Positions 2,988-13,383 of a stretch of DNA of 26,965 nucleotides are shown here, in pieces. Each line of letters opens with the position of its first letter. Position 1 is the first letter of the stretch. The position numbers were made by a program, and so were the translations under genes. The notes below the pieces were generated by a model. It had not been told where the DNA came from and did no database searches. It saw only the letters and a list, made by a program, of their open reading frames with translations. The stretch lies in IMG/VR virus record IMGVR_UViG_3300027805_000070, positions 1-26,965 of that record; one strand, given 5' to 3'. Origin of the DNA: a virus.

Positions 2988-3041
2988 GTTTATGTTGTTT
3001 CTAGTTACTAGTTAATTTATTGATCTTTGAAAGGTAGTTAT

Positions 3042-3560
3042 ATGAATATCTTCTATTTGCACCACATCGCTCCCATTGCTGCCGAGTACCATTGCGACAA
3101 ACATGTCGGCAAAATGATTATCGAAACTGCGCAGCTTCTAGCCGCAGCTCATCACCTCCACGGCAACGGCGATGCTGTTACCTATAAGCTCACTCATCAA
3201 AATCATCCAAGCGCCATCTGGGCCCGTTCTTCCCCTGCTCATTACAAATGGCTAGCTACGCTCGGCCAATACCTTGGCTACGAATTCTATCGCCGTTATG
3301 GCAAACGCCATAAGTCAGCCGACATCATTGCCAACGAGCTTATGTTGCCTCCCCCAGCTTTACAAGCTATGCCGTACACATGGTGTCCACCTACATTAGC
3401 TATGCCTGACGAATACAAGTCCGACGACGCTGTCGAATCGTATCGCAACTTTTACGCCAGCAAAGCCAATCGTATGCCTATGGTTTACCGCCAAGGCAAA
3501 CAACTTCCGCCAGTATGGCTTACCGATATCTGGCAATCACAACATAAGGAGGCAGCATAA
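3042..3560 (+). CDS. conserved phage protein of the type often annotated as pyrimidine dimer DNA glycosylase
   Basis: A 172-residue protein. I use ATG 3042 rather than the in-frame start at 3027 because GAAAGG (3029-3034) lies 7 bases upstream and the N-terminus MNIFYLHHIAPIAAEYHCDK matches the family start. Conserved features are YHCDKHVGKMIIETAQLL (about 16-33), THQNHPSAIWAR (about 51-62), a tyrosine- and arginine-rich YEFYRRYGKRHKS (about 80-92) and MPDEYKSDDAVESYRNFY (about 126-143). I know this pattern from many phages, often labelled pyrimidine dimer glycosylase. I see no clear match to T4 DenV, so the label is only tentative. A role in DNA repair or base excision is inference. It starts a new transcript and couples to the MazG-like gene. 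Confidence 0.65.
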   Translation: MNIFYLHHIAPIAAEYHCDKHVGKMIIETAQLLAAAHHLHGNGDAVTYKLTHQNHPSAIWARSSPAHYKWLATLGQYLGYEFYRRYGKRHKSADIIANELMLPPPALQAMPYTWCPPTLAMPDEYKSDDAVESYRNFYASKANRMPMVYRQGKQLPPVWLTDIWQSQHKEAA

Positions 3561-3958
3561 TGTTTAAATCAGTTGGCGAGTTCAGAGCCAAAATGCAATT
3601 ACCTATGAGTGACTCACCTCATTTGCTTTCGCCTGAGGAAACATCATACTTTGCGCGGTTCATCATGGAGGAGCTTTCTGAGTATCTTCGCGCTAATGAA
3701 GAGCAAAACTTAGTTGGTGCTGCTGATGCGATTGTTGACTTGGTCTACGTAGCACTTGGCGCTGCGCATGCAATGGGGTTACCGTTTGATGAGTTGTTTA
3801 ATGTAGTACATCAGGCTAATCTCAAAAAAGAACCTGCCAATGAATTTTGTCGCTCAATTCGTGGTAATCAATACGATGTTATCAAGCCGTTAGGTTGGGA
3901 AGCACCAGAGCCAGAAATGCAAAACATTATCAATAAAGCAATTAAGGAAGTAAAATGA
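3560..3958 (+). CDS. MazG-like all-alpha nucleoside triphosphate pyrophosphohydrolase
   Basis: A 132-residue helical protein. EELSE at 37-41 and DAIVD at 56-60 form the paired acidic EExxE / DxxxD metal sites of MazG, HisE and dCTPase-type NTP pyrophosphohydrolases, followed by FDELFNVVHQANLKK (76-90) with the conserved Asn87. The family hydrolyses (d)NTPs to NMP and PPi. In phages, members remove unwanted nucleotides (T4 gp56 destroys dCTP) or act on host alarmone pools. The start overlaps the previous TAA (TAATG), with a strong AAGGAGG (3546-3552). A dCTPase-like role would fit the hydroxymethylase at 12598, but substrate cannot be read from the sequence. Confidence 0.8.
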   Translation: MFKSVGEFRAKMQLPMSDSPHLLSPEETSYFARFIMEELSEYLRANEEQNLVGAADAIVDLVYVALGAAHAMGLPFDELFNVVHQANLKKEPANEFCRSIRGNQYDVIKPLGWEAPEPEMQNIINKAIKEVK

Positions 3959-10791: not shown

Positions 10792-11682
10792 ATGAATATC
10801 CTTATCACCGGCGTTACCGAAACGCATATCAATCATCCAGATAGAGCAGGCTCTACCAAGTTTATCTCTATTCCTGAGCTAATGTCCGATGGCTTTACAA
10901 AACTAGGACATCAGGTTGACCATCGCGCCGTTGAGCTAGGAGAAGATTTAAGCATATACGACAAAGTCTTTGTGTATTTATACCCATTGGATAAAAATGC
11001 AGTTGATCCAGCTGGTGCTGTATATGCTTTGGCACAAAGAAAAGATGCGTATGTTTGCTTAGATGATTGGTCATTCCAAAAAATATTACCCACATGGAAA
11101 GATGACATTGACATGGAAGACATTCAGTCACGTACATGGTTAGCGCCCCTTTTTCCATGGGGCAATATTGCCAAAATGAATTTACCTGTAGCAAAAATTC
11201 AAGCATGGGACCCATCACCACTTTATGTTATGCCACCTGTTCACAAGGTAGCGTGGAAACAACGTAAAGCTGAGTGGTACAACGCTTCACTTTCAAAAGA
11301 TTCGCATGAATGGGCAGCAAAGCAAGAACTTATGTGGCCTGTTCATGCGATTGGTGGAAAGTCTCTTGGCCAACCACGCATACTTGAATCTGATGTTGTA
11401 TGGCAATATGGTTCTTATAAAGGTGTGTTATGCCCAACCTATTCACATGCAGGTTGCGGTTGGTGGCGAGTTAGATACTTGCACGCTGCTGCAGCAGGTT
11501 GTGTGCTAGGTGGCAACCCTTTAGAATTAAATATGATTGGTCCATCTTATAGCTTTACATTAAAAGGCCTTGAAATGATGGATGATGAAAACCTAGAGCA
11601 TTTGGCTGGTTTGCAAGCAATGGATTTAAAACATGCAACACTTGCCAAAACATTGGCAAACTTAGAAAGCTTCCTAAAATGA
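10792..11682 (+). CDS. putative GT-B-fold glycosyltransferase (possible DNA base modification)
   Basis: A 296-residue protein. The N-terminus MNILITGVTETHINHPDRAG, then ISIPELMSDGFTKLGHQVDH, looks like the first Rossmann half of a GT-B enzyme. The C-terminal YKGVLCPTYSHAGCGWWRVR (209-228) with LHAAAAGCVLGGNP (230-243) resembles the nucleotide-sugar binding region of GT4-like transferases, where a small-residue AAG loop follows a charged helix. No DXD motif is obvious, as expected for GT-B. It is directly followed by a nucleotide kinase fusion and a hydroxymethylase, so transfer of a sugar to hydroxymethylated DNA bases is a reasonable inference; a virion or envelope sugar substrate is the alternative. 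The fold call is by eye. Confidence 0.55.
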   Translation: MNILITGVTETHINHPDRAGSTKFISIPELMSDGFTKLGHQVDHRAVELGEDLSIYDKVFVYLYPLDKNAVDPAGAVYALAQRKDAYVCLDDWSFQKILPTWKDDIDMEDIQSRTWLAPLFPWGNIAKMNLPVAKIQAWDPSPLYVMPPVHKVAWKQRKAEWYNASLSKDSHEWAAKQELMWPVHAIGGKSLGQPRILESDVVWQYGSYKGVLCPTYSHAGCGWWRVRYLHAAAAGCVLGGNPLELNMIGPSYSFTLKGLEMMDDENLEHLAGLQAMDLKHATLAKTLANLESFLK

Positions 11683-12620
11683 TCCTAATACTTGAAGGCC
11701 CAGATGGTGCCGGAAAGACAACCCTTGCTGAGACGCTGCGACAGCGTTTTCAGAATAATGGTATGGTCCATATAGTTAAACACGGCCCTTACACAGGCGT
11801 TGAGCCTGAGCATCTTTGCCGTATTTACTTTAGAGCAATGTCACCTGCATTAACGTTTGATGACATTGTTATCATGGATCGGTCATGGATTTCTGAGCCA
11901 ATTTATGGTGAAGTCTATCGCAATGGCGCCAATCGTATTGACACACCTCGAAAGCGTATGCTTGAACGTGTTGCGTTATCAAGAGGCGCAGTGGTTATCC
12001 ATTGCCAACCTGATTTTGAGGTTTGCGCTGAAACATTTGAAAAGCGTACTGAAGAAGAATACCTTGATGACATTAGCCAGCTTGAGCAAGTGTATAACGA
12101 ATACGAAGCGTTGCCGTTGATTACCAACTTACCTACAGTGCACTATGACTACACACGTGATACTGTAGATGAGTTACTACATAAGATAGAAACAGTGTCA
12201 ATAAAGAATGAGGCGTCAGGAGGTGGATGCTTTAAACAAGGTAACATATTGATGCTATGCGATAAGGGCCCCAGAACTAACGTACGTGCCTCTGCAGTGG
12301 TCATTCCATTCATTAACTTCCTTGACAATGATGGCCCTAGTCGTATGCTGGCAGACGCACTTGAGTATGAAGGCGTTACTGAAAAAGAGCTTTACTGGAT
12401 TAACACACAAACTTATCAAGGCACACCAACCGAGCCTGAGTTTATTGAGAAATTGAAACCAAGCAAGATTTTTGCATTGGGCAATAATGCCTACACATGG
12501 GCATTAAATAATAATGTGAAAGCAATAAAATTACCACCACCGCTACATCATATGCAGCATTACCCTAACCAACCTTATTTGATCATGGAATCTGACAATG
12601 GAAACTTCAATAATCTATAA
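11679..12620 (+). CDS. P-loop nucleotide kinase fused to a uracil-DNA-glycosylase-fold domain
   Basis: A 313-residue two-domain protein. Residues 1-172 are thymidylate-kinase-like: P-loop GPDGAGKT (7-14), DRSWISEPIYGEVYR (67-81) where dNMP kinases have their DR(Y/S) motif, and a lid-like KRTEEEY (122-128). Residues 188-302 match the uracil-DNA glycosylase superfamily pattern: NILMLCDKGP (189-198), DGPSRMLADALEYEGV (218-233), LYWINTQ (238-244), FIEKLKPSKIFALGNNA (255-271) and HHMQHYP (290-296). The usual GExPG and HPS catalytic motifs are replaced, so glycosylase activity is doubtful. Between a GT-like gene (ATGA overlap) and a dCMP-hydroxymethylase-like gene, it may phosphorylate a modified nucleotide or base and then process it. 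Confidence 0.75.
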   Translation: MILILEGPDGAGKTTLAETLRQRFQNNGMVHIVKHGPYTGVEPEHLCRIYFRAMSPALTFDDIVIMDRSWISEPIYGEVYRNGANRIDTPRKRMLERVALSRGAVVIHCQPDFEVCAETFEKRTEEEYLDDISQLEQVYNEYEALPLITNLPTVHYDYTRDTVDELLHKIETVSIKNEASGGGCFKQGNILMLCDKGPRTNVRASAVVIPFINFLDNDGPSRMLADALEYEGVTEKELYWINTQTYQGTPTEPEFIEKLKPSKIFALGNNAYTWALNNNVKAIKLPPPLHHMQHYPNQPYLIMESDNGNFNNL

Positions 12621-13383
12621 TGAGCCCGATCTCATTCAACTATACCAATGTCTAGAGCAGTACGGGCATTGGACTGAGCCAAGAGGCGAAAAGACTCTTG
12701 AGATCGAAAACTTTACTTACACAGTAGGGCCACGTGTAAGATTTAATTCTTTCAAAGGCCGCAACTTCAACCTTAAGTATCTTAAGCGCGAAATGGCTTG
12801 GTATATTAATGCAGACCCGCATGACTTATCTATTGCTGAGCATGCAGCGCAGTGGGGCAAAGTTGTTGCAAATGGAAAGCTCAATAGCAACTATGGTTCA
12901 TATTGGTTTGGCTGTTATGGCGTTAAGTATATTACCAGTACGCTTTCAAAAGATCCAATGAGTCGCCGTGCTGTTATACCTATGTATGGCACTGACGATG
13001 ATCACATGGACAAAGACGCTAAAGATGTGCCATGTACTATTGCAATTGAGTTCAGAATACGTAATGGCAGGCTAAATACACGTGCCATCATGCGTTCTCA
13101 GGACATCCTTTGGGGTATGGGTAATGATCTACCCACATTTAGTTTCCTCCAAGAGATCGTAGCAACACTTTTAAACTTGCAAGTAGGCACACTCACTGTT
13201 TCAGTTGGTTCGTTCCACGTTTATGAATCTCGCTTTGAGATGTTTCAAAACATTCTAAAAGAAAATACGCATGAGGCTATTGCTGATAAACCACCTATGA
13301 TTGGTCGTTTTGAAGCACATAACCTTATTGAAAAATCCATCAACCCTTCCTTCGAGTTCTCAAAATGGCTAATGAATATATAA
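12598..13383 (+). CDS. thymidylate-synthase-family nucleotide hydroxymethylase, T4 dCMP-hydroxymethylase-like
   Basis: A 261-residue enzyme that overlaps the kinase gene by 23 bases. Conserved elements: E65 (KREMAWY), NSNYG (96-100), SRR (122-124), nucleophile C146 (DVPCTIAIEF), R166/S167/D169 (MRSQDILWG), N176-D177 and VGSFHVY (203-209). As I remember it, T4 gp42 has the same NSNYG, SRR, MRSxDvxxGxxND and VGSLHVY blocks. D177 falls where thymidylate synthase has the Asn that selects dUMP; Asp there selects dCMP. The predicted reaction is dCMP plus methylene-tetrahydrofolate to 5-hydroxymethyl-dCMP. A dUMP substrate is not excluded. Expected role: supply of modified nucleotides for phage DNA. 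Confidence 0.85.
   Translation: METSIIYNEPDLIQLYQCLEQYGHWTEPRGEKTLEIENFTYTVGPRVRFNSFKGRNFNLKYLKREMAWYINADPHDLSIAEHAAQWGKVVANGKLNSNYGSYWFGCYGVKYITSTLSKDPMSRRAVIPMYGTDDDHMDKDAKDVPCTIAIEFRIRNGRLNTRAIMRSQDILWGMGNDLPTFSFLQEIVATLLNLQVGTLTVSVGSFHVYESRFEMFQNILKENTHEAIADKPPMIGRFEAHNLIEKSINPSFEFSKWLMNI

Follow-up and report, generated by a model that had tools for sequence, protein, structure and literature searches.

The window analysed here, a stretch of 26,965 nucleotides from the IMG/VR virus record IMGVR_UViG_3300027805_000070, encodes a protein in which a thymidylate-kinase-fold dNMP kinase is joined to a domain with the fold of the uracil-DNA glycosylases (UDGs). The fusion is genuine and well conserved, and to judge from its neighbours it lies in a cassette that probably serves the synthesis of 5-hydroxymethyl-dCMP (hm-dCMP) and not of thymine. 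In a reading that we hold tentatively and place somewhat short of probable, the kinase would act on hm-dCMP, and the glycosylase-like domain would remove U and hmU in other members of the family, with only its pocket being kept in the clade of the window protein. Were this true, a widespread phage family, usually labelled thymidylate kinase, would be tied to the synthesis of viral 5hmC.

The fusion gene and its two domains

The gene shares a few bases with each of its neighbours, overlapping the upstream gene's stop at one end and the downstream gene's start at the other. The fusion cannot be put down to faulty sequencing or a frame error, since the same arrangement is found in 54 distinct proteins of the clade to which the window protein belongs (hereafter the window clade) and in 44 distinct fusion proteins outside it. 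The gene and its motifs are as follows.

11679..12620, + strand: kinase-UDG fusion gene, 313 residues, a single unbroken open reading frame
11679..12194, + strand: thymidylate-kinase-fold dNMP kinase domain, residues 1-172 (Pfam, PHROG and fold searches)
11694..11720, + strand: P-loop EGPDGAGKT, residues 6-14; E6, G7, D9, G10, G12 and K13 each in 42 of 42 aligned proteins
11877..11888, + strand: DRSW, residues 67-70, the NMP-kinase DR motif; D67 and R68 in 42 of 42
12225..12581, + strand: UDG-superfamily (family 4/UdgX-like) domain, about residues 183-301 (profile search, AlphaFold model and fold matches)
12255..12272, + strand: LCDKGP, counterpart of UDG motif A; LCD(K/R)GP in 54 of 54 window-clade proteins, G then D/E in the other fusions
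12306..12311, + strand: PF, residues 210-211; Phe in 121 of 122 aligned rows
12402..12404, + strand: Asn242; Asn in 122 of 122 aligned rows
12531..12557, + strand: LPPPLHHMQ, residues 285-293, in place of motif B HPQxxKRF (alignment)

A preliminary description of this DNA had proposed a P-loop dNMP-kinase-like N-terminal domain, and the searches bear it out. The domain matches Pfam Thymidylate_kin (E 1.7e-9) and, over residues 1-175, PHROG 761, thymidylate kinase (E 2.8e-23), while residues 1-177 adopt the thymidylate-kinase fold, with a structure match to 4s35_B at Z 15.4. It thus combines a P-loop, a DR motif and the TMK fold, and in profile and fold searches it resembles dTMP and dNMP kinases. 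The TIGR00041 score of the window protein is 41 bits, under the NCBI dTMP kinase equivalog cut-off of 83.25 bits, and the domain is therefore not named a dTMP kinase; the kinase profile gave no match to T4 gp1. In the model of the full-length fusion (pLDDT 90.8, pTM 0.90) both domains are packed confidently.

The C-terminal domain has, on profile and model comparisons, a UDG fold of the family 4/UdgX type. Against the Pfam UDG model the window C-terminus alone scored 13.9 bits (E 0.06), below the gathering cut-off of 24.3 bits. A profile built from 24 related C-termini hit 28 PDB sequences (E<=10), and 27 of these belong to family-4 UDG or UdgX. With the AlphaFold model of the window C-terminus alone (pLDDT 79.3) as the Foldseek query, the top 44 rows were all UDG-superfamily chains, the best being 1ui1 (E 8.5e-4), and the phiLo phage polymerase structure 9qhs is among the UDG fold matches. 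VIA-align of the same model gave family-4 UDGs at Z 9.9 with 113-118 residues aligned, a score reached both with 1vk2 (113 residues, 2.6 A) and with 4zbx; with the full-length model, kinase matches fill the list and the C-terminal domain is absent among the matches listed. The structure comparison and the search with the C-terminal domain alone had both been proposed in the preliminary description, whose UDG scaffold they uphold.

Bacillus phage G carries the same two domains in the same order in gp315, where Thymidylate_kin (1.1e-6) is followed by UDG (PF03167 1.5e-12, 48.2 bits against the cut-off of 24.3). The NCBIfam family-4 UDG model also matches gp315, at 8.8e-9 and under that model's cut-off. 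This protein is annotated as a thymidylate kinase, the UDG part being missing from the annotation of the record. Unlike the window protein, gp315 keeps the motif-B His (HPAYVKRF) and has QNPG at motif A. The PDB profile matches, the fold matches and phage G gp315 together rule out a chance resemblance to UDG.

In fold and motif order the window domain follows the family-4 UDG and UdgX structures 1vk2, 4zbx, 1ui0 and 6ajp, and the motif-B stretch HPQywKR of fusions outside the window clade aligns to HPaylLR of the Thermus family-4 UDG. Unlike these enzymes, the window protein is joined to a kinase and lacks both the motif-A Gly and the motif-B His, with LCDKGP instead of GExPG and LPPPL instead of the motif-B stretch. 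Phe211 is presumably the base-stacking Phe of family-4 UDG, and Asn242 aligns to what we take to be the pyrimidine-contacting Asn of UDGs. The loss of catalytic motifs had been recognised earlier and holds for the window protein, with LCD(K/R)GP as the motif-A counterpart; the motif-B counterpart, however, is LPPPLHHMQ and not the HHMQHYP first assigned to it.

The hydroxymethyl-dCMP cassette

Three further genes of the window are of interest with regard to the pathway.

12598..13383, + strand: thymidylate-synthase homologue of the dCMP-hydroxymethylase type, with Cys146 and Asp at 177 (E. coli ThyA numbering)
3560..3958, + strand: MazG/PRA-PH-like NTP pyrophosphohydrolase, 8 kb from the fusion here, though its neighbour in most other phages
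10792..11682, + strand: highly conserved gene immediately preceding the window-clade fusion, a candidate modification enzyme of PHROG 14998 (unknown function)

The hydroxymethylase that had been noticed beside the fusion is the thymidylate-synthase homologue at 12598-13383. Its product matches a CMP 5-hydroxymethylase (1.2e-17) and the T4 dCMP hydroxymethylase (5.5e-14) ahead of ordinary thymidylate synthases, and it has the catalytic Cys together with Asp in place of Asn177. Position 177 was surveyed in 84 loci including the window, and among the 82 that yielded a thymidylate-synthase homologue the residue is Asp in 80, the window included, and a gap in 2; by itself, Asp177 fits a dCMP methylase as well as a dCMP hydroxymethylase. 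As controls, T4 gp42 has Asp, and E. coli ThyA, SPO1 gp29 and M6 gp58 have Asn. Because the residue is of the dCMP type and the closest relatives with solved structures act as (d)CMP hydroxymethylases, the pathway would be one of cytosine; a thymine or hm-dUMP pathway is excluded on the same grounds, hm-dUMP having been one of the kinase substrates named for assay in the preliminary description. The T4 proteins gp1, gp42 and gp56, which we take to act as dNMP kinase, hydroxymethylase and dNTP pyrophosphatase, form a pathway of the same type as the window cassette, and the domain profile found no UDG-like match in T4.

Outside the window clade the usual gene order is NTP-pyrophosphohydrolase, fusion, thymidylate-synthase homologue and dCMP deaminase. 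All 9 records searched for other fusions contain the deaminase, and none of the 10 window-clade records (43.9-111 kb) does; it also lies near 38 of the 39 fusion loci found through the domain search. The one exception, L159, has no dCMP deaminase in its 20 kb record, though HPQYWKRF is retained; conversely, L081 has retained the deaminase and lost the motif-B His, which is replaced by Asn. The contrast between deaminase and motif B is suggestive, and it counts essentially as one evolutionary event, since the proteins of the window clade all sit on one branch of the tree.

The Stenotrophomonas phage AXL3 has this operon in the order NTP-pyrophosphohydrolase, fusion, D177 enzyme and dCMP deaminase. 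Its gp29, annotated as thymidylate kinase, is a full-length homologue of the window protein (34% identity over 94%), from which it differs in that HPQYWKRF and the deaminase are kept. According to the available text of the original report, the authors interpreted these genes as dTTP synthesis, and AXL3 DNA is cut by just two of 37 restriction enzymes, both with A/T-only sites, and resists the other 35 (PMC7504290). Cleavage at A/T-only sites alone fits a modified cytosine. In phage G (L202, 228500-238500), the fusion gp315 is accompanied by the DNA alpha-glucosyltransferase gp313 (PF11440 3.4e-9), the dCMP deaminase gp317 and the D177 thymidylate-synthase homologue gp319; glucosylated 5hmC is therefore predicted in this phage.

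With regard to other genes near the cassette, the conserved gene at 10792-11682 has no PDB sequence match, and hhalign to the T4 beta-glucosyltransferase gave a probability of about 1%, so that a glycosyltransferase label goes unsupported; L160 likewise has a homologue of this gene in the vicinity of its fusion. Many of the fusions outside the window clade are accompanied by a conserved SAM methyltransferase (AXL3 gp31; 10602-11426 in L009), for which the hydroxymethyl base is a possible substrate; none was found in the neighbourhood of the window-clade fusions. Elsewhere in the window, positions 3036-3560 encode a small protein of PHROG 624 (DNA binding protein, 2.4e-48) that weakly matches the Pfam pyrimidine-dimer glycosylase family (E 0.027).

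Relatives and motif replacement in the window clade

The fusion is present in AXL3, Pseudoxanthomonas phage PW916, ctUtU524 and phage G, as well as in about a hundred IMG/VR loci; the homologues in the first three were full-length in tblastn. A profile search of viral contigs gave 166 loci, and in the best 80, which were examined, nearly the whole query is covered, except in two truncated loci and in L083 (query residues 2-243). The C-terminal domain alone as query gave 66 loci, and when these and the earlier loci were taken together, 29 of the 69 reading frames examined had no kinase match. Two of them, L099 and L156, start at the edge of a contig and are truncated fusions; the remaining 27 reading frames, which include identical ones, appear to be stand-alone. 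A protein of this stand-alone kind matches the domains of AXL3, PW916 and ctUtU524 at 8e-10 to 9e-13, and the stand-alone and fused forms are therefore related. By tblastn over 50,697 records the domain appeared in only 4 records (3 phages), a search that overlooked phage G; among 84,980 genomes scanned, the hits were confined to two loci of metagenome-assembled genomes, and a plasmid search for the domain found none. Within a limited literature search, no description of a UDG-thymidylate kinase fusion in phages was found, and the word kinase has 0 occurrences in the accessible text of the preprint on the bacterial glycosylase Brig3 (PMC13160076).

The proteins were counted after L001 (ambiguous letters), L069 and L070 (both cut) and identical proteins had been left out. 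Across the 122 distinct proteins aligned, Asn242 is invariant and Phe211 is present in 121; the rows labelled stand-alone number 24, including the cut fusion L099, so that 23 are true. In the 44 fusions outside the window clade, motif-A D/E is kept in 42, Phe in 43, Asn in 44 and the motif-B His in 43, and most fusions have a motif A that lacks the Pro-Gly of family 4. The pattern HPQ..KRF had been used to find the stand-alone set and many of the fusions, which biases their motif-B counts, and the count was therefore redone on the 16 fusions found via the kinase side only: 15 of them keep the motif-B His. This near-perfect HPQxxKRF outside the window clade looks catalytic. All 54 window-clade members, in turn, have LPPPL(H/Y)H(M/I/L)Q in its place. 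The word degenerate, applied earlier to the domain, is thus apt for the window clade and not for the fusion family at large.

When the motif-B columns are left out of the tree, the window clade forms one side of a branch with support of 100/100; it has a stem of 0.96 changes per site and is nested within 21 fusions that together are supported at 96/93. These values come from only 128 columns and a rooting that depends on the stand-alone group. The sister of the clade is L159, in which HPQYWKRF is retained. Over 38 pairs the UDG-like domain shows a lower median dN/dS than the kinase (0.036 and 0.043, respectively) and a higher mean identity (75% and 67%). Given an invariant new motif, strong purifying selection and a clade on a long stem, the picture that these alignments suggest is of a domain that changed its job and was then constrained, and not of decay. 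The repurposing envisaged in the preliminary description finds its support here, within the window clade.

Kinase and domain also occur apart. In Pelagibacter phage HTVC200P and MedDCM phage C10 (L100, L101) an unfused kinase of 157-162 residues lies beside the D177 enzyme, accompanied in C10 by the NTP-pyrophosphohydrolase and dCMP deaminase, and the domain profile gave no match in the whole records of either phage. The domain would therefore be an addition to a kinase able to work alone, and both phages, from these gene contents, probably modify cytosine too. At the stand-alone loci, a T4-type SSB (gp32) and UvsX are neighbours in 7 of 20 and a UvsW-like gene in 6 of 20, on labels assigned by eye. 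Of 18 stand-alone records searched, 10 exceed 110 kb and the other 8 are fragments with no matches; a D177 hydroxymethylase is found in 8 and a dCMP deaminase in 7 of the 10 large ones, two of which (G021 and G023) have no thymidylate-synthase family gene. The D177 homologues of the giant phages L181 (record G026) and L183 (record G018) contain 2 and 1 in-frame TGA codons, respectively, which would reflect either a reassigned TGA or a broken gene. In a small control of six giant phages, five (GAP32, RaK2, phiKZ, PaBG and PAU) gave no domain match, and the thymidylate-synthase copies examined in them, which were all but a weaker second hit in PAU, carry Asn177; the sixth, phage G, has both the domain and the D177 enzyme.

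Possible roles of the glycosylase-like domain

In the mechanism that we favour, the kinase-UDG cassette would make 5-hydroxymethyl-dCMP for phage DNA synthesis, with the kinase domain phosphorylating hm-dCMP, as we take T4 gp1 to do. The UDG-fold domain may act in most family members as a quality-control module, whose targets would be the deamination products U and hmU in DNA or, less likely, in free nucleotides; the hmU could arise from the cassette's own dCMP deaminase acting on hm-dCMP. In human cells, as described in the available sections of one report, DCTD deaminates 5hmdCMP, SMUG1 excises 5hmdU from DNA and DNPH1 destroys 5hmdUMP (PMC9142498). A phage making hm-dCMP beside its own dCMP deaminase would face the same deamination problem, for which a UDG-type domain joined to the kinase would be a remedy. 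In the window clade, where the deaminase and the His/HPQxxKRF motif are gone and the pocket Phe and Asn remain, the domain would most likely serve to bind a base or a partner with no cleavage, keeping the kinase close to its substrate or to DNA. The exceptions L081 and L159 count against this mechanism, as do the pelagiphages and T4, which have no UDG domain. Further points against it are the single evolutionary contrast behind the deaminase pattern, the ambiguity of Asp177, the missing family-4 Pro-Gly in most fusions and the large stand-alone records G021 and G023 with no thymidylate-synthase family gene. If it is correct, it would offer an explanation for the restriction-resistant DNA of AXL3, and cytosine modification would be expected in phage G.

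The bacterial enzymes Brig1 and Brig3 bear on how the scaffold may be used. In the parts of the reports available, Brig1 excises alpha-glucosyl-5hmC (PMC11078745) and Brig3, according to a preprint, excises 5hmC (PMC13160076). By description, they share with the window domain a UDG-superfamily scaffold linked to modified cytosine; unlike it, they are defence enzymes that attack phage DNA. Bacteria would thus turn against modified cytosine the scaffold that phages have joined to precursor synthesis. It is doubtful, on present evidence, that a phage-specific HPxxxKRF branch of the UDG superfamily, fused or free-standing, proofreads viral 5hmC synthesis by removing what the cassette's deaminase produces and that the window clade is a non-cutting, selected LPPPL(H/Y)HMQ recognition module, a counterpart of the Brig enzymes.

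Another explanation, which we consider unlikely, is that the UDG-fold domain never cuts and that all the fusions read hm-dCMP, hmC or glucosyl-hmC, so gating or tethering the kinase. The nearly invariant pocket Asn and Phe, the confident packing of the two domains in the full-length model and the retuning of UDG folds to 5hmC seen, in the text available, with Brig1 and Brig3 (PMC11078745, PMC13160076) would all suit such recognition. So would the UDG domains found on a different partner, PolA, in SPO1 and the Pseudomonas phage PMBT14, both of which have hydroxymethylase-type genes. SPO1 gp31 (L087) and PMBT14 gp45 (L203) carry the domain at the N-terminus of the polymerase (PF03167 1.1e-22 and 3.6e-24, respectively), with another motif B than the fusions; PMBT14 additionally has a D177 enzyme and an unfused kinase. 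By hhalign the domain profile reached a probability of only about 1% against the SPO1 polymerase N-terminus, though Pfam reads the region as UDG. However, the catalytic look of HPQxxKRF outside the window clade speaks against recognition throughout the family, and another role would be required for the stand-alone copies.

It is improbable that the domain sanitises the nucleotide pool by hydrolysing free dUMP or hm-dUMP beside the kinase, like human DNPH1, which has a different fold. UDG-fold enzymes are known to act on DNA, and the stand-alone copies lie among DNA replication and recombination genes, which also tells against this role. In its favour are the fusion to a nucleotide kinase, the linkage to dCMP deaminase and the degradation of 5hmdUMP by DNPH1, as given in the available sections of PMC9142498.

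Very improbable is a hypermodification route, with a kinase that adds phosphate to hydroxymethylated bases within DNA and a glycosylase scaffold that holds the resulting phosphorylated base or replaces it. A kinase, a glycosylase fold and a hydroxymethylase are all adjacent here, and the HhH-fold aGPT-PPlases offer a parallel. However, the hydroxymethylase is of the cytosine type, with Asp where the dUMP-type enzyme that marks 5-hmU DNA kinase/aGPT-PPlase hypermodification has Asn177. Furthermore, the kinase is like dTMP and dNMP kinases, its profile has no match in the examined parts of M6 or SPO1, and an unfused kinase occupies the pelagiphage operon; the handling of a phosphorylated base put forward in the preliminary description therefore goes unsupported. 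Finally, a vestigial passenger domain left by an accidental fusion is scarcely tenable and already largely refuted: the same operon is found without the domain and motif B is lost in the window clade, but the low dN/dS rules out a decaying passenger, the domain is better conserved than the kinase and the replacement motifs are invariant.
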